From positions 124,001 to 188,000 of the forward strand of contig NZ_FMTY01000005.1 of the NCBI RefSeq assembly GCF_900100625.1: DNA of 64,000 bases. Direction: 5' to 3'. The notes below the pieces were generated by a model. It searched no databases and was not told the DNA's origin. It saw only the letters and a program-made list of their open reading frames with translations. Shown piece by piece: positions 9,030 through 16,230 of the stretch. Positions within the stretch are counted from its first letter, which is position 1. Every line of letters begins with the position of its first letter. The translations under genes were made by a program, and so were the position numbers. The DNA is from Flavobacterium saliperosum (GTDB lineage Bacteria; Bacteroidota; Bacteroidia; Flavobacteriales; Flavobacteriaceae).

Positions 9030-10007
9030 TTACTTCTTTAACGCTTTTTGCTGCTCTTTTTCCTGTTTTTTGAAATACCCTCTGAAAAGGAAATTATGTT
9101 TCAAGGCTTCCATATTCTGATTCAGTTTGATACTCGATTGGTTGATGTTCGTCATGGTCGAATCGATTTTCTGTACCAGTTTCGGATCGTTAGAAAGGTA
9201 ATTGATGGCTCCTTTTCCGTCTTTGGCATTGGTAATCGTCGCGTTCAGATTCTCCACCACACTGTCAATCTTGATGCTGGATTTTTCTAAATTAGTCACA
9301 ATATGTTTTATTTTATTGGCGACGGCTGTATCGTTAATGACTCCCACCACATTATCCTTCCGGTTTAAGGAAGCCATCAATTGGTTTAATTGCGCGACCG
9401 ATGTTGTGGTTCCCTGACTCGTAATTTTAAGATAATGTAACGTTTCTTTTAAATCGTTCGCCATCGAAGTATCGTTCAAAAGCATCCCGACGGTTCCCTT
9501 ACCATCGGTTATTTCTTTGGTAATCTTAATTAAATCGGCAGTTAAAATAGCCGCGTTTTCGTTGGTGACACTCAGCGTTTTCAATATATCTTCGGTGCGT
9601 ACTTTACTGAAAGATTTAATGACATCGCCCGCCTTTACATTAGGAGCATTGCCTTTTCCGGGAAGAATATTAATGATCATGTTTCCTACCAATCCGTCTG
9701 AGCTTATCGTTGCCACAGCATCGGTTTTTATGTGCGGCAGAATTTTATCGTTGATTATCATATCCACCCGAATCATGGTATCGTTAATCATTTCGATATC
9801 TTTCACTGTTCCGACATTGATACCGGAATACCGCACGTTATTTCCAAGCTGTAACCCGTTCACATTATTGAAAACCGTACTGATATGCGACGTTTGCCCG
9901 AACATGTTTTGTTTTTTTCCAATAAAATATACGGCAGCCACAAATAGTGTTAAGCCTGCCAAGACAAAGATTCCGAGTTTTATTTTTTGTGCATTCGTTT
10001 TTTCCAT
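9030..10007 (-). CDS. mlaD: MCE-domain lipid transport protein (MlaD-like)
   Basis: A 325-residue periplasmic protein anchored by one N-terminal helix (about 13-30, GIFVLAGLTLFVAAVYFIG). An MCE domain follows at about 35-125, with NNVNGLQLGNNVRYSGINVG and the G-x-V-x-x-I pattern. The remainder is mostly helical with repeated TDL/IT and coiled-coil-like segments and a basic C-terminus (KKQEKEQQKALKK). It is the substrate-binding component of an Mla-type phospholipid trafficking system. It is the last gene of the mlaE-mlaF-mlaD operon, 7 bases behind the ATPase. No MlaC or MlaB gene is seen. Confidence 0.88.
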   Translation of the reverse strand: MEKTNAQKIKLGIFVLAGLTLFVAAVYFIGKKQNMFGQTSHISTVFNNVNGLQLGNNVRYSGINVGTVKDIEMINDTMIRVDMIINDKILPHIKTDAVATISSDGLVGNMIINILPGKGNAPNVKAGDVIKSFSKVRTEDILKTLSVTNENAAILTADLIKITKEITDGKGTVGMLLNDTSMANDLKETLHYLKITSQGTTTSVAQLNQLMASLNRKDNVVGVINDTAVANKIKHIVTNLEKSSIKIDSVVENLNATITNAKDGKGAINYLSNDPKLVQKIDSTMTNINQSSIKLNQNMEALKHNFLFRGYFKKQEKEQQKALKK

Positions 10008-10014
10008 ACCCGTT

Positions 10015-10746
10015 TTATTTAAAGAAAGCTTTTACCTTGGGATCTGTTGACGAGGAGAGTTCCTTAAAAGTTCCTTCGGCATAATTAATTCCGTCCACCA
10101 GTAAAATCATCCGGTTCGAAATCACCCTGGCACAATCCACATCATGCGTGATGATAATCGAAGACGTTTTGTATTTTTCCTGTACCGATTGCATTAGTAC
10201 GATAATTTCTTTTGATGTGATGGGGTCAAGCCCGGTTGTTGGCTCGTCGTATAATATGATTTTTGGTTGTAATATCAATGTACGCGCTAAAGCGATACGA
10301 CGTTTCATTCCGCCGGAAAGTTCGTTGGGCATCAAATCAATGGCATGTTCCAGACCGACATTGCGCAGGGCTTCCGTTACCAGTGGTGTGGTGTCTTCAA
10401 TAATGCCGAATTTCTTGGTATGCCGTCGCAACGGAAATTCCAGATTTTCCCGCACCGACATCGAGTCGTACAAAGCACTTCCCTGAAACAAAAAACCAAT
10501 TTCGGTGCGCAATTCGTCCATAGCATCCCTTTCGAGTTTCATGATATCTTTTCCCATGATTTCTATGCTGCCGCTGTCCGCTTCTTCCAGTCCAATGAGA
10601 CATTTGATCATTACCGATTTTCCCGAACCGGATTTTCCCATGATTACCAAATTTTCGCCTTCATTTAAAATCATATTGAAGCCGTCTAATACATGATTGG
10701 AACCATAGCTTTTTTTCAGATCTTTTATGACGATTATCGGGTTCAT
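10015..10746 (-). CDS. mlaF: ABC transporter ATPase (MlaF-like)
   Basis: A 243-residue cytoplasmic ATPase energising Mla-type phospholipid movement. Walker A is GKSGSGKS (37-44), the Q-loop is in LFQGSALYDSMSVREN, the signature is LSGGMKRRIALART, Walker B is IILYDEPTTGLDP and the switch histidine is in ITHDVD. LSGGMKRR and SALYDSMSV are typical of the MlaF/Ttg2A group. The start is 2 bases behind the permease stop, consistent with one transcript. Confidence 0.9.
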   Translation of the reverse strand: MNPIIVIKDLKKSYGSNHVLDGFNMILNEGENLVIMGKSGSGKSVMIKCLIGLEEADSGSIEIMGKDIMKLERDAMDELRTEIGFLFQGSALYDSMSVRENLEFPLRRHTKKFGIIEDTTPLVTEALRNVGLEHAIDLMPNELSGGMKRRIALARTLILQPKIILYDEPTTGLDPITSKEIIVLMQSVQEKYKTSSIIITHDVDCARVISNRMILLVDGINYAEGTFKELSSSTDPKVKAFFK

Positions 10747-10748
10747 GC

Positions 10749-11531
10749 TTATAAATCGTAAAATATATCGGTAACAAAAACCGCCACAAAATCAATGATA
10801 AACAACAGCATCGATGTATATACAACCGCCGAATTGGCTGCTAAACCCACTCCGGCTGTCCCTTTGGTGCAATAATACCCTTTGTAACATCCTACTAATC
10901 CAATGGCAAAGCCGAAAAAGAATGATTTGATGGTAGCCGGCATCAGATCGCCAAATTCCAACGCTTCAAATACCTGATTGAAATACAACTGAAAAGAGAC
11001 GTTTCCTTTTAAATTCTCAACCAAATACGAACCATATACCGCAATGGCATCACCGATGATGACCAAAACGGGTAACATGAATGTAGTGGCCAATATTCGG
11101 GTAACGACTAAGTATTTGAACGGATTGGTTCCGGACACCTCCATGGCATCTATTTGTTCGGTCACCCGCATGGAGCCTAGTTCGGCACCAATACCCGAAC
11201 CGATTCTTCCGGCGCAGATTAACGCGGTGATAATCGGACCGATTTCCCGGATAATCGAAATACTCACCATGGAGGGCATCCAGGAAACCGCTCCGAATTC
11301 CTGTAAAGTAGGGCGGGACTGCAACGTGAAAACCAACCCGATGATAAATCCGGTTACCGCCACTAGCAAAAGCGAACGGTTGCCCATATTATAGCATTGC
11401 CGTAAAAACTCTTTGAATTCGAATGGTCTTTTGAATACTTCCTTAAAAAAACGACCGGCAAAATAGGAGAGATCGCCAACTTCGGATAAAAAAGATTGGA
11501 AGGATTCGGATATTTTTAAAACTGTACTCAT
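10749..11531 (-). CDS. mlaE: ABC transporter permease (MlaE-like)
   Basis: A 260-residue inner-membrane permease with about five or six helices. The family signatures are present: VAVTGFIIGLVFTLQSRP, IIREIGPIITALICAGR, GAELGSMRVTEQIDAMEVSG and FGFAIGLVGCYKGYYCTKG. It forms the membrane channel of the Mla-type system. It is the first gene of the operon, behind a -7 motif at 11564-11571. Together with the MCE protein it probably maintains outer-membrane lipid asymmetry. Confidence 0.9.
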   Translation of the reverse strand: MSTVLKISESFQSFLSEVGDLSYFAGRFFKEVFKRPFEFKEFLRQCYNMGNRSLLLVAVTGFIIGLVFTLQSRPTLQEFGAVSWMPSMVSISIIREIGPIITALICAGRIGSGIGAELGSMRVTEQIDAMEVSGTNPFKYLVVTRILATTFMLPVLVIIGDAIAVYGSYLVENLKGNVSFQLYFNQVFEALEFGDLMPATIKSFFFGFAIGLVGCYKGYYCTKGTAGVGLAANSAVVYTSMLLFIIDFVAVFVTDIFYDL

Positions 11532-11672: not shown

Positions 11673-12236
11673 TTATAGTTCTTCTAACATGATTCGTTTT
11701 TTGTATTGTTTTATTTTCTTAAAATAAGTTGGGGTCAATCCGGTGATTTTTTTAAACTGATGGGATAGATGGGCAACACTGCTGTAATCCATTAATAAGC
11801 TGATTTCCGTAAGACTTAACTCGTCATATAAAAGGAGCTCTTTTACCCTTTCGATTTTGTTGATTATAATGTAGTTACCTATGGTTGTACCCGTAACTTC
11901 TGAAAAAAGTGTGGCAAGATGATTGTAATTGTAATCCAGTTTTTCGCTTATGTAATCCGAATAATTGACTTTAGGATATTTTTCCGAGTAGTGGATAAGT
12001 TCGATAATGGTGGTTTTGGCTTTTTCTATCAGTAACGATTTTTTATCGTCAATTAACTCAAGCCCTTTTTTTAAAAGTCCAATCCGTAACAACTCCCTGT
12101 CATCACCCGAAATAGCCTTTTTAAGATTTATTTCACCTAATTCAATGGCGGTATGTTTTAGTTTTAATCGGTCTAATTCTTCCTTCACTGCCATTTTACA
12201 ACGCAGTGAAACCATATATTTTATGTGTAATTTCAT
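11673..12236 (-). CDS. Short AraC-type transcriptional regulator
   Basis: A 187-residue cytoplasmic DNA-binding protein. The C-terminal ~100 residues form the double helix-turn-helix of the AraC family, with LSLTEISLLMDYSSVAHLSH and FKKITGLTPTYFKK. The N-terminal ~75 residues (MKLHIKYMVSLRCKMAVKEE) are too short for a cupin sensor and match a group of small AraC proteins common in Bacteroidota, in which this part resembles a ferredoxin-like fold. The ligand and targets are unknown. No adjacent metabolic gene suggests a regulon. Confidence 0.82.
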   Translation of the reverse strand: MKLHIKYMVSLRCKMAVKEELDRLKLKHTAIELGEINLKKAISGDDRELLRIGLLKKGLELIDDKKSLLIEKAKTTIIELIHYSEKYPKVNYSDYISEKLDYNYNHLATLFSEVTGTTIGNYIIINKIERVKELLLYDELSLTEISLLMDYSSVAHLSHQFKKITGLTPTYFKKIKQYKKRIMLEEL

Positions 12237-12400: not shown

Positions 12401-12434
12401 AAAAAAAATCCGTTTGGGTTAGCAAACGGATTTT
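12401..12434 (-). terminator. Terminator of the ice-binding/OmpA operon
   Basis: A perfect stem AAAATCCGTTTG / CAAACGGATTTT (12405-12416 and 12423-12434) encloses six bases and is followed on the minus strand by a run of U. It lies just past the OmpA-family stop. Confidence 0.85.
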
Positions 12435-12440
12435 AGGAAT

Positions 12441-14453
12441 TTATTTAATTATATCTATAATAACGGTTCGGTTATAGAATCGTTCTTCGGGATATTTGTT
12501 CTCAAAGGGTGCAGCTTTTTCGTCTTCACCATCACCGCGAACTTTAAACGTTACATCGGTTCTTCCGGCAGCCGCAAGACTTTTTTCCAGAATACTTTTC
12601 ACATCATTTGCTCTAGCTAAGGATAAGTTTTTATTGTGATCCACTTCTCCGATTACATCGGTGTGCCCTGTTATGATAACGGTAGCATTTTTCGGAATTT
12701 TAGGAGCAACAATTTCCGTTAAATACTTATCATAAATTGCAATGGATTTCGATTCGTTGAATTCATAAATGACACTGAATCGAATGCTTTCCTGAACGAC
12801 AGGCGCTACGTAAGGAGCCAAATGCATGGTGCTTTCCTGACGGATGCTTTTTCCTGATTTTGTAGTTCCGGTCATTACAATCTTGTAATCGCCTTCCGGT
12901 TGGTTAGCCATAATTGTTTTTCTTGGAATACTGATTTCCTCTTCTGTGTAAGGACCAAAATTTTGTGTTTTTCCTTTTTCATCTTTAATTTGTAAAGACC
13001 ACATTTTTAAGGTTTCCTCAGCGCCTTTAACGTTAAAGACCACATCATTGTTAGGATTTTGATTGCCTGTAATGATTTCTATAGGTTTTAATGGTGCATT
13101 TTTACCACTTTGAAATTCCATCAATAATTCGGAGGAGTTACTCTCGATGGAGACTCTTCGGTCGCCTTCTCTAAGTAATCCAAGTTCTTTTGTACCTCCG
13201 GTTTGTTCGGATGGCACTTCAGGTTTATCTCTTCCTTCTACTGCAATTCTGTTTTCTTTAATTTCAAAAACGGTAGTAAGATAGTTCTTTACATTTTGCG
13301 CCATGGCTAATCCCTCTTGACGACCATTTTCTGATGAGCCTACCAAAGTGATTTTGGCATTGGGATTTTTAACCATTCGGTCTCCCAGAATGTTTAGAAT
13401 ATTGTAATACACTAACATTTGGCGATCAGAACGACCCGACATGTTTTTAGGAGTATTGAATTGCACCTGATCTTCTTTGAAATCTTTAACCTGATTTTTA
13501 CTTAATAAAACATATCGGTTTGGAATTTCTGTTGAACCTTCATTAAAAAACACATAATTACGGATAGGGAATACTTCTCTTACCACTTTTACATTTTCAA
13601 CGTTTGCAGGAGGGTTCACTGAGAAGGTTACCTGCCCATCAACGGGTGTTTCCATTAATTTACCCTGACCGAATTTCAATACCATTCCGGCTCTTAAAGT
13701 AGTAACATTCCAGGTTTCCACACTTCTTGGGTTTTGACCAAAGTAAGGATGATAGGATACAAACGGCGATAAAACGAATTGTGTTTTACTGGTTGTGGCA
13801 TTAAGAGGAAAATCATATCCTAATCCGATTTGCATGGAGATGATGTTTTTATTGACAGCACTGAAATCCCCTTTTACATCCGGATTTTGCTCTTGACCCG
13901 GATAATCCGGATTCGTTCCTTGCTCATAGGTGAACGATTTGTTCTGAATAAAAGCAAATCGTGGTCCGCCATATAAGTAGAAATCAGATTTGAAAGGAGC
14001 AAATCGTAAACTAGGTTCAATTGTGATATAGCTTAGTTTCGTGTTCAAATCGGCAGGACAATTACAAGGAGTTGTTACTTCTTTAAATTTTCCGCGACGA
14101 CTGTCGTAACCTGCTTGTAAAATGAATCCAAATCTCGAGTCCGGTCGATGGAATTCAATGTTGGGAGCAATGAATAAGCCTACACCGTTTCCATTATGAA
14201 ATGCTGTTGGGGGTGTAAAAGTCTCGTTTAACATAAAGGTGGAGCCGCGATAGAAATTAAAATTGGCTCCTGCCGCTACACCAAATAACCACGAAGGTTT
14301 TGTGTATTGGTTTACTTGTATGGTTTCCTGCGCATTTACTTTAGTTGAGCTCGTAAGAATAAGTAGTGTAATTACAAATAAGGCTTGTAATTGAAGCAGG
14401 CTTTTGAATCTCATATTGGGAGATGCAGCCGCTGTTGTATAATTGATTTTCAT
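12441..14453 (-). CDS. OmpA-family outer-membrane protein
   Basis: Started at 14453, this is a 670-residue protein (an in-frame start at 14483 would read into the upstream gene). A signal peptide ends near STKVNAQE. Residues about 35-250 look like an outer-membrane barrel. The last ~110 residues are an OmpA peptidoglycan-binding domain (IITGHTDVIGEVDHNKNLSL, RANDVKSIL, FYNRTVIIDI). A second, divergent OmpA-like stretch lies around residues 350-450 (ITLVGSSENGRQEGLAMAQN, LLREGDRRVSIES). It probably ties the cell wall to the outer membrane. It lies 16 bases behind the ice-binding-like lipoprotein and is probably cotranscribed with it. Confidence 0.82.
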   Translation of the reverse strand: MKINYTTAAASPNMRFKSLLQLQALFVITLLILTSSTKVNAQETIQVNQYTKPSWLFGVAAGANFNFYRGSTFMLNETFTPPTAFHNGNGVGLFIAPNIEFHRPDSRFGFILQAGYDSRRGKFKEVTTPCNCPADLNTKLSYITIEPSLRFAPFKSDFYLYGGPRFAFIQNKSFTYEQGTNPDYPGQEQNPDVKGDFSAVNKNIISMQIGLGYDFPLNATTSKTQFVLSPFVSYHPYFGQNPRSVETWNVTTLRAGMVLKFGQGKLMETPVDGQVTFSVNPPANVENVKVVREVFPIRNYVFFNEGSTEIPNRYVLLSKNQVKDFKEDQVQFNTPKNMSGRSDRQMLVYYNILNILGDRMVKNPNAKITLVGSSENGRQEGLAMAQNVKNYLTTVFEIKENRIAVEGRDKPEVPSEQTGGTKELGLLREGDRRVSIESNSSELLMEFQSGKNAPLKPIEIITGNQNPNNDVVFNVKGAEETLKMWSLQIKDEKGKTQNFGPYTEEEISIPRKTIMANQPEGDYKIVMTGTTKSGKSIRQESTMHLAPYVAPVVQESIRFSVIYEFNESKSIAIYDKYLTEIVAPKIPKNATVIITGHTDVIGEVDHNKNLSLARANDVKSILEKSLAAAGRTDVTFKVRGDGEDEKAAPFENKYPEERFYNRTVIIDIIK

Positions 14454-14469
14454 AGTTGATTTTTTAGTT

Positions 14470-16230
14470 TTACTGAGGAACATTTATGGTTGTATTTACC
14501 ATTGTTACTGATGCTACAAGTGATAGTGCTCTTCCGTTCAGTACCGTTTGAGCTGCATTACCGGCAGTTGAGATTGTAACACCTGAATTGGCAATTATCG
14601 TACCTACCATGGTTCCGCCACCAGCACCATTGATAGTAGCCGTGCTTCCAACATACCAGAATACGTTTTTAGGTAAGGCACCATTGATTAAGACGACACT
14701 CTTTGCTCCAGTGGGTCCGGCAATACCTACTGTTAAGCCGGAAGCTGTTTGAAAAACCCATACTGCGTTTGGATCACCTTGCGCATCAAGCGTTAAGTTA
14801 CCATTTGAAATGTTGAACGTTCCGCTGGCTGATTTATAAACACCGGGAGCCAATGTTAATCCACCCAATTCTCCAGCTCCGGGATCAGTACCTCCAGGCA
14901 TTGATGCGGGTGAAATACTTAGGTATGCTGCATTGGCATCAGATAGTGCTTGAGTTGCAATTGCAAATGATGTTGCTGTACCGGGCATTGGTGGTGCTGT
15001 GAAAATTGCTCCGGTTACCCGACCTACATTTAGAGGTGTTTCGGTATAAATTGCTGTGGCATCGTGAAAACCGGTTACTAATGTAGAGGCTGCAGTTGTT
15101 GCAATGCTTCCGTTAATTACCGTGTTTAAACCTTGATTGGTTATGCCGGCATTTCCGCCAAACGCTCCAAATTGTGCCGCTGATCCTAAATTCGGACTAA
15201 TCGAACTGTTGATGGTACTAAATGTCCAAACATAATCGGTAGCGATAGAATCACCTGCAGGGTTTTTGGCTCCTGTTGTAATGGTGGCAGTAAATACCGC
15301 ATTTTCCAAAAGTGGATTTGCAGGTGTAAATGACGCCATGTTTCCACTATAGCTTACTGTACCCACAACGGTGTTTGCTCCTTGTTTTAAAGTAAAAGTT
15401 GTGGCAGATATTGTTAAAGGATCCATAGCCATATCAAATGTTGCTGTAACCACTTTATTAAGTGCGACACCAGATGCATTGTTTGCCGGATCGGTTAAAA
15501 TTACCGTTGGCGCTACAATTGTTCCTGTTGTAAAATTCCATGTATAATCGGTTCCTAAAGGAACATTGGCAGTATTTTCTGCTCCGGTAGTAATGGTAGC
15601 TGTATATACTGTGTTGGCAGTTAAGTTTACATTAGGAGTAAAAAAAGCCTCATTCCCGGAATATGTAACAATACCGGTAATGGTGTTGGTTCCTTCTTTT
15701 AATGTAAATGTTGTTGTGTTGATTGTTGCAGCATCCATTGGCATATTAAAGGTAGCGCCGACTACTATGTTTAAGACCACTCCGGTTTCATTTCTTGTGG
15801 GGTTGGTTGCAATTACCAGAGGTTGCAAAGTTGCTCCCGTACTGAAAGTGAAAATGTAATCTTCCTGTAAAGCATTACCTCTTAAGTCTTTTACTGCAGT
15901 TGTAATTCTTACGGAATATGTAGTGTTTGTAGTTAAATTTACTGTTGGAGTAAAAGTAGCGGTTACACCCGAATAAGTCAGAGTACCTGTAATTGTTGCG
16001 TTTCCGTTTACTATAAAAGAAGAGGAATTGATTGTAGAAGGGTTCATCTCCTCATTAAAAGTAACTGTGATTACTTGATTAAGAGGAACGTTTACAGCCG
16101 CATCAGTAGGATTTGTCGTGACAACAACAGGACATAAGCCAGCCGTTTCCTGAAAATCATCTTTTGCGCAACCTGTAATTAAAGTAGCTAAAACTATCGC
16201 AATAGTTACTAAAAAGTTTTTTTGTTTCAT
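14470..16230 (-). CDS. Ice-binding-like (DUF3494) lipoprotein with three Ig-like domains
   Basis: A 586-residue lipoprotein. The lipobox is LITGC, with cysteine 21 followed by AKDD, which resembles the K-D/E-D/E surface-export signal described for Bacteroidota lipoproteins. Three bacterial Ig-like (Big_5) repeats of about 102 residues follow, each with a V-T-F-N/D-x-x-M core and a DY-x-F/W-T/S-F-x-T-G end. The last ~235 residues are a DUF3494 domain (FGAFGGNAGITNQGLNTVIN, GDPNAVWVFQTASGLTVG, LNGRALSLVASVTMVNTTI), the fold of bacterial and diatom ice-binding proteins. Ice binding is inferred from the family; not all DUF3494 proteins bind ice. It is the first gene of an operon with the OmpA protein. 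Confidence 0.88.
   Translation of the reverse strand: MKQKNFLVTIAIVLATLITGCAKDDFQETAGLCPVVVTTNPTDAAVNVPLNQVITVTFNEEMNPSTINSSSFIVNGNATITGTLTYSGVTATFTPTVNLTTNTTYSVRITTAVKDLRGNALQEDYIFTFSTGATLQPLVIATNPTRNETGVVLNIVVGATFNMPMDAATINTTTFTLKEGTNTITGIVTYSGNEAFFTPNVNLTANTVYTATITTGAENTANVPLGTDYTWNFTTGTIVAPTVILTDPANNASGVALNKVVTATFDMAMDPLTISATTFTLKQGANTVVGTVSYSGNMASFTPANPLLENAVFTATITTGAKNPAGDSIATDYVWTFSTINSSISPNLGSAAQFGAFGGNAGITNQGLNTVINGSIATTAASTLVTGFHDATAIYTETPLNVGRVTGAIFTAPPMPGTATSFAIATQALSDANAAYLSISPASMPGGTDPGAGELGGLTLAPGVYKSASGTFNISNGNLTLDAQGDPNAVWVFQTASGLTVGIAGPTGAKSVVLINGALPKNVFWYVGSTATINGAGGGTMVGTIIANSGVTISTAGNAAQTVLNGRALSLVASVTMVNTTINVPQ

Follow-up and report, generated by a model that had tools for sequence, protein, structure and literature searches.

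The window considered here, a stretch of 64,000 nucleotides from Flavobacterium saliperosum (contig NZ_FMTY01000005.1, positions 124,001 to 188,000), harbors two adjacent genes, designated A and B, which recur in genomes across the Bacteroidota as a strict two-gene unit with a conserved cysteine signature. The two products probably constitute one surface device, a displayed and wall-anchored adhesin with exchangeable tips, the tip being perhaps ice-binding in this host. A preliminary description of this DNA proposed that a stalk for ice binding or surface adhesion sits on the outer membrane and is anchored to the wall by its OmpA partner; this arrangement is supported by the sequence comparisons and predicted models outlined below. 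The pair comprises the following parts:

14470-16230, minus strand: gene A, a lipoprotein of 586 amino acids with a stalk of three Big_5 domains and a DUF3494 tip (open reading frame, Pfam)
16168-16230, minus strand: lipoprotein signal peptide of A ending in LITG-C, with the lipid cysteine Cys21 invariant in 32 aligned proteins (sequence, alignment)
16150-16170, minus strand: CAKDDF, an export signal of the type C-X-K-(D/E)2 (consensus of PMC5080379)
16132-16134, minus strand: Cys33 of the G-L-C-P motif, 12 residues past the lipid cysteine and the sole other cysteine of A (alignment)
15217-16131 (end approximate), minus strand: stalk of three Big_5 (bacterial immunoglobulin-like, Ig-like) domains (Pfam)
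14473-15210, minus strand: DUF3494 tip, a beta-solenoid with the B-face strands AGIT, GNLT, SGLT, STAT, SGVT and ASVT (Pfam, model, fold search)
12441-14453, minus strand: gene B, 670 amino acids, with an OmpA-type barrel, a degenerate OmpA domain, an Ig-like linker and an OmpA domain
14052-14081, minus strand: loop 2 of the barrel with Cys130-Asn-Cys132, codons 14058-14066 (AlphaFold2 model, alignment)
13662-14297, minus strand: eight-stranded beta-barrel of B, approximately residues 53-264 (AlphaFold2 model)
13134-13556, minus strand: first, degenerate OmpA-like domain, approximately residues 300-440 (AlphaFold2 model, alignment)
12819-13052, minus strand: beta-rich, possibly Ig-like linker, approximately residues 468-545 (secondary structure of the model)
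12444-12800, minus strand: C-terminal OmpA domain of the wall-binding type with invariant Asp599 and Arg614 (Pfam, alignment, Foldseek)
12405-12434, minus strand: terminator-like hairpin 3' of gene B (hairpin scan)

An alignment-based scan of named genomes, carried out with two peptide patterns outside the CxC loop and a query built from 11 B proteins, all of them partnered, choices that may bias the result, yielded 426 B relatives, the best 80 of which form the named set and include Flavobacterium lacisediminis, F. cheniae and F. tibetense among the closest ones. A DUF3494 gene lies directly upstream of B on the same strand in 78 of the 78 testable loci of this set, with contigs ending at the remaining two (L102 and L117). 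The Pfam family of the tip, Ice_binding (PF11999), is present in 6 of 149 genomes of a family sample (nearly one per genus) and in 99 of 398 Flavobacterium genomes of a genus sample. In the latter, 62 long B matches (>600 bits) were listed in 61 genomes, and all listed B genes without internal stops (60/60) feature a PF11999 domain ending 27 to 166 bases upstream of the B match. The two exceptions, in G459 and G416, are broken B genes with internal stops. The former (L203) is an orphan pseudogene without a partner in a genome lacking any PF11999 match, and the latter (L204) is a copy which retains its partner and has mobile-looking open reading frames nearby (by eye). Likewise, reading the flanks of 13 further CxC-bearing loci from a phylum sample (345 genomes) and a class sample (395 genomes) revealed a DUF3494 partner in 13/13. 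Since there is partial overlap among the named, genus and wider sets (F. cheniae occurs in two of them), their counts are not to be added. The co-occurrence of both families across genomes, which the preliminary description had proposed as a check, was thus borne out in the named as well as in the genus sample. The tip is DUF3494 in every pair read except that of G812 (L169, 3743-7902), in which a CGC-bearing B is accompanied by a GYCP lipoprotein with six Big_5 domains and no DUF3494. No PF11999 match was found in this genome by the same family search that gave matches in the host genome and in the family and genus samples. Mount and stalk can thus exist without the tip.

The only cysteines of the pair in the window are Cys21 and Cys33 of A together with Cys130 and Cys132 of B. 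Cys33 is invariant in the 32 aligned proteins, and a second cysteine after the lipid cysteine, always followed by proline (the CP motif), occurs in 73/73 complete named partners at position +12 (71), +11 (1) or +13 (1), five of the 78 partners being left out of this count because contig ends cut their N-terminus. The same cysteine was found in 12/12 complete partners of the 13 further loci (L196 is cut by its contig). The lipid and CP cysteines are the only ones from the lipid cysteine onward in 60 of 74 lipoproteins, including that of the window. On the side of B, the CxC motif is located between barrel strands 3 and 4 in 80/80 named proteins, both cysteines are retained in 81/81 aligned ones, and in 80 of these 81 the mature protein contains no cysteines besides them. 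A home-made lipobox rule, which missed some true partners (e.g., L098, L192, L198, L200), identified 144 distinct open reading frames with a lipobox in the window and 116 loci. The CP motif was present in 83 of them, all adjoining a B (that of L204 a broken one), and in none of the remaining 61. Unpaired DUF3494 lipoproteins of L106 (at 2449) and L132 (at 5738) have no CP cysteine, and in L124 a second DUF3494 lipoprotein with the CP cysteine is followed by a second B. In addition, no CP-motif lipoprotein was found by the lipobox rule in 11 loci of distant B homologues whose barrel is devoid of CxC (L170-L180); the CDC present in the reading frame of L180 precedes the signal peptide. Three of these CxC-less homologues (L170-L172, from G865, G786 and G707) adjoin ExbB/ExbD/TonB-like genes or part of this set (names given by eye), a setting which hints at another role of this branch.

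The preliminary description had read the second gene, 16 bases on, as an OmpA-family barrel with a wall-binding end, and the analysis agrees with it. The stop codon of A is followed, after this gap, by the start of B on the same strand, taken as the ATG at 14453. The longest open reading frame of B would begin at 14483, overlapping A, and the N-terminal KINYTTA is mostly retained in two close relatives. B begins with a signal peptide, followed by a barrel for which the AlphaFold2 model predicts strands at residues 55-69, 87-102, 108-124, 135-151, 158-177, 204-213, 224-235 and 249-263. The Pfam match to OMP_b-brl is below threshold (8.9e-4, 19.9 bits vs a cut-off of 28.7), and Foldseek listed the OmpA barrels 9fzd and 1bxw as well as the peptidoglycan-binding OmpA domains 3td3-3td5 among the matches of B. 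Pfam OmpA was matched by residues 587-645 (1.1e-10), and Asp599 and Arg614 within this domain are invariant in 81/81 aligned B proteins; the corresponding residues of known OmpA structures (e.g., 3td4 and 3td5) bind peptidoglycan. The second OmpA-like stretch noted previously is real but degenerate, as this first copy carries other residues at the places matching Asp599 and Arg614 (comparison by eye). Since the wall-binding residues are invariant in the last OmpA domain and replaced in the first copy, the wall should be held by the last domain only.

The N-terminus of A reads MKQKNFLVTIAIVLATLITG-CAKDDF, and LITG-CAKDD combines a lipobox with C-X-K-(D/E)2, the criterion applied for surface lipoproteins. 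In 62 of 74 proteins, A of the window included, residues +2 to +7 carry a net negative charge. C-X-K-(D/E)2 is enough for surface export in Capnocytophaga canimorsus, where an export signal derived from F. johnsoniae functions as well (PMC5080379). A thus carries a start resembling a surface-export signal, and its exposure on the cell surface appears likely from this. The Pfam match to Big_5 is distributed over three stretches (7.7e-60). Accordingly, the previous reading of the first gene as a lipoprotein signal with an acidic AKDD segment after the cysteine, three Big_5 repeats and a DUF3494 domain agrees with both Pfam and the sequence.

The tip was matched by Ice_binding at residues 359-583 of A (5.4e-51, 173.6 bits vs a cut-off of 28.7), and the NCBIfam model IBP_CFB (NF045625, ice-binding protein) gave 51.3 bits, with 400 being needed. 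The structure prediction recommended in the preliminary description returned a discontinuous beta-solenoid braced by a long helix (79-98), with a predicted local distance difference test (pLDDT) value of 92.8, a predicted template modeling score of 0.91 and small or hydroxyl residues on the B-face. A fold search with this model listed 25 entries of solved ice-binding proteins, including several mutants of one protein, with Z scores of 29.4-31.5; the next fold, at 13.4, is a related beta-solenoid carried by the pilin ComZ. The columns of the putative ice face were mapped by eye after the strands of AnpIBP, as given in PMC7277481, and alignments to solved relatives, and were then located by script. 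In the six strands of the window tip (AGITNQ, GNLTLD, SGLTVG, STATIN, SGVTIS and ASVTMV), all coils (6/6) have Thr in column 4, and columns 1 and 2 comprise Ala, Gly, Ser, Thr and Asn only. Over 44 aligned tips, Thr occupies 216 of the 264 places of column 4. A regular Thr-rich face, the lack of which had been set beforehand as a refuting point, is therefore present; it fits ice binding and is not decisive. DUF3494 also occurs in ice-free habitats, and a regular face is not specific for ice (PMC12337378). The chance that the window tip binds ice is put at about even. It is not claimed that the tip always does so, as some faces are charged and the pair of G812 is tip-less.

Stalk and tip vary among the pairs. 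Ten partners scanned with Pfam feature 1 to 10 Big_5 domains, and five of them additionally 2 to 9 Flg_new_2. By short motifs, at least four types of tips were distinguished (45, 22, 9 and 3 of 79, seven of the 79 being typed by hand). On a quick tree of B, the tip type changes 16 times, with 3 changes being the least possible and 30.4 the mean after shuffling. The B proteins of Flavobacterium sinopsychrotolerans and F. limicola (L083/L084) are 97.7% identical and their tips 37.4%. As far as such comparisons reach, the DUF3494 tip is shown to be exchangeable on a constant mount.

How surface lipoproteins, being held by a lipid, could bear mechanical load, e.g., by holding a cell to ice, represents a puzzle which a dedicated wall-bound partner would answer. 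In the proposed working, A would reach the external side of the outer membrane via its CAKDD export signal and be held there by its lipid, with the Big_5 stalk lifting the beta-solenoid tip off the membrane. B would act as a dedicated anchor, its barrel residing in the outer membrane and its C-terminal domain gripping the peptidoglycan. A pulling force on A would pass to the wall rather than to the lipid alone, as the strict pairing and the conserved wall-binding residues suggest. Contact between both proteins would take place at the membrane surface; here, Cys33 could reach the CxC of loop 2 and form a three-cysteine joint. The tip of the window may, with roughly balanced chances, bind ice, by which the cell would be fixed to ice or its surface shielded from ice growth. 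If true, this would provide a clean genetic handle consisting of two genes and three cysteines, explain the display of one solenoid fold in many habitats by a tip swapped on a fixed mount, and open a route to protein display on Bacteroidota. A further generalization is offered tentatively and is more doubtful than not: a Bacteroidota-wide display system whose stalk would be locked via the three-cysteine joint (disulfide or metal-thiolate) to the wall-bound OmpA protein, with joint and anchor kept constant and stalk length and tip exchanged.

Several observations weigh against a wall-anchored device with an ice-binding, exchangeable tip. The pairs are also found in Pontibacter and other taxa which are not known for ice. 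Glu or Asp occurs on the putative ice face of related tips (L083, L098, L104, L115), the N-terminus has no net negative charge in 12 of 74 proteins, and well-supported branches of the B tree alone force fewer changes of the tip, namely 5 (type I) and 6 (type II). The model of B is moderate, with a mean pLDDT of 65.5 overall and about 57-59 in loop 2. Moreover, by the trends of PMC12337378, the uniform Thr column and the absence of Ala from column 2 make the face look less like sequences from polar-marine or glacier sources, if those columns correspond to the ones used here, a correspondence which is not established. Part of these findings favors a device with the same stalk and anchor whose tip binds a non-ice target (a polysaccharide, an algal or mineral surface or another cell), with the ice-binding fold being a scaffold. 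This explanation is a serious one, with a probability somewhat short of even. It gains from the pairs in Pontibacter and metagenome-assembled genomes of Bacteroidales, from the exchange of tip types on the B tree, from the charged faces, from the solenoid of ComZ, and from the ice-free habitats of DUF3494 together with the poor fit of the window columns to ice-environment trends, with the same proviso on the columns (PMC12337378). It is opposed by the structural proximity of the window tip to solved ice-binding proteins and by its complete Thr column with small neighbors. Besides, many of the named Flavobacterium hosts are species of cold habitats. The strict pairing and the order of A before B are equally compatible with B being an export or assembly helper of A, i.e., a chaperone or surface-transfer partner instead of a load-bearing anchor, and a CxC can serve as a thiol-exchange motif. 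Nevertheless, the pore of an eight-stranded barrel, as in OmpA structures, is too narrow for a protein chain, and the wall-binding residues are retained in all aligned B proteins. Surface lipoproteins of Bacteroidota are exported by a general signal (PMC5080379). Such a helper appears unlikely. That both genes are mere neighbors with separate jobs, A in ice protection and B as an ordinary OmpA protein, and share nothing except co-transcription, would agree with the abundance of OmpA proteins and with the known family of each half. This is very improbable: in the examined loci, every intact B with a CxC barrel and readable DNA upstream was accompanied by a lipoprotein partner, cysteines are co-conserved in proteins with hardly any others, and B is a pseudogene in G459, the genome without a PF11999 match.

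Within the preferred reading of a wall-anchored device, the chemistry of the cysteines has to be weighed separately. Loop 2 is predicted to be extracellular from the OmpA topology, with N- and C-termini in the periplasm. Because Cys33, at 12 residues from the lipid, and this loop would both be near the membrane surface, a joint between A and B is plausible. Its probability is considered to be limited, clearly below even. The barrel CxC goes with a CP-motif partner at all checkable loci, and barrels without CxC go with no such partner. This argues for the joint, even if the division into loci with partner and CxC and loci with neither follows mostly one deep split and thus reflects one association kept rather than many independent gains. 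Neither DsbA nor VKOR was matched by the family search in the host genome, and the case for a disulfide made by an enzyme is weaker for it. Prolixibacteraceae, Paludibacter and Lentimicrobium, the lineages of several partners, are known as anaerobic; together with the lack of DsbA and VKOR matches, this makes a metal-thiolate site or a Dsb-free disulfide worth considering. A literature search on disulfide systems of Bacteroidetes, judged by titles and abstract openings, yielded nothing on point. The absence of DsbA and VKOR matches also speaks for an alternative in which the device works as proposed but has no cysteine link between A and B: the CxC, a motif which can make an internal disulfide or a metal site, would be internal or metal-binding, and Cys33 would give dimers of A. 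This variant is quite conceivable, though not favored over its negation, with the concerted occurrence of CxC and CP motif standing against it.

Regarding the surroundings of the pair, terminator-like sites in the region number 3, compared to 4.2 expected from shuffles, and the hairpin behind B is thus weak evidence alone. The host genome has a size of 2.89 Mb and contains one PF11999 match. The gene at 11673-12236 on the minus strand, which adjoins the pair downstream, encodes an AraC-family regulator whose N-terminus (YMVSLRCKMAVKEEL) resembles HMA by eye. Of the 78 paired loci, 13 have a homologue within the flanking DNA retrieved, the flanks being of unequal length, and this gene was accordingly dropped as a member of the unit. 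The homologue is located downstream in the clade of the window and upstream in Pontibacter and some other Bacteroidota; the regulator may control the pair in lineages that have both. Close to the surface pair, at 9030-11531 on the minus strand, three consecutive open reading frames bear a likeness, by eye only, to components of Mla-type lipid transport, namely an MCE-domain protein, an ABC ATPase and a permease.

No account of the A-B pair was found in the open literature searched, with most subscription journals lying outside that search, and within its range no lipoprotein adhesin is known to be attached in trans, through the outer membrane, to the wall. The strict two-gene unit with its cysteine signature and tip exchange is new in that it was not found described; the parts themselves are known. 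A close comparison for A is SfIBP_1 of Shewanella frigidimarina, whose structure (PDB 6bg8) was matched by the window tip with a Z score of 29.7 and which, unlike the A-B pair, is not known to have an OmpA partner or three-cysteine signature. SfIBP_1 likewise combines a DUF3494 tip with a stalk of tandem beta-sandwich domains and is proposed to tether cells to ice (PMC9957290). The same paper describes Big_5-DUF3494 proteins from Arctic sea-ice metagenomes in identical order (pfam13205_pfam13205_pfam11999), so that this architecture and the label 'tethering' are already published; OmpA is not among the frequent neighbors given in its passages at hand. In the same genus, PL002-1792 of an Antarctic Flavobacterium is a predicted lipoprotein with an ice-binding-like beta-solenoid, but comprises 402 amino acids and is annotated as LIPL48, and its main text contains no mention of OmpA, outer membrane or Ig-like (PMC13413566). 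Surface lipoproteins with the lipoprotein export signal (LES) resemble A, as CAKDD fits C-X-K-(D/E)2 and DDF fits the F. johnsoniae consensus SDDFE, whereas a second conserved cysteine or an OmpA partner does not appear in the passages at hand (PMC5080379). The RTX ice adhesin MpIBP of Marinomonas primoryensis also carries an ice-binding domain on a long stalk by which cells are held to ice. Nevertheless, it has another ice-binding fold and is one giant protein, without a lipoprotein or OmpA partner in the passages available (PMC5014055). The anchoring itself finds its counterpart in AtaA-TpgA of Acinetobacter sp. Tol 5. In the simulations reported in PMC13082670, TpgA reinforces the membrane anchor of the adhesin fiber against pulling and approximately doubles the force needed to extract AtaA. 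AtaA is, in contrast, a trimeric autotransporter, and TpgA is periplasmic and not a barrel. B gave 28.1 bits with the TpgA-type anchor family (NF047726, cut-off 350) and would accordingly resemble TpgA in its working only.

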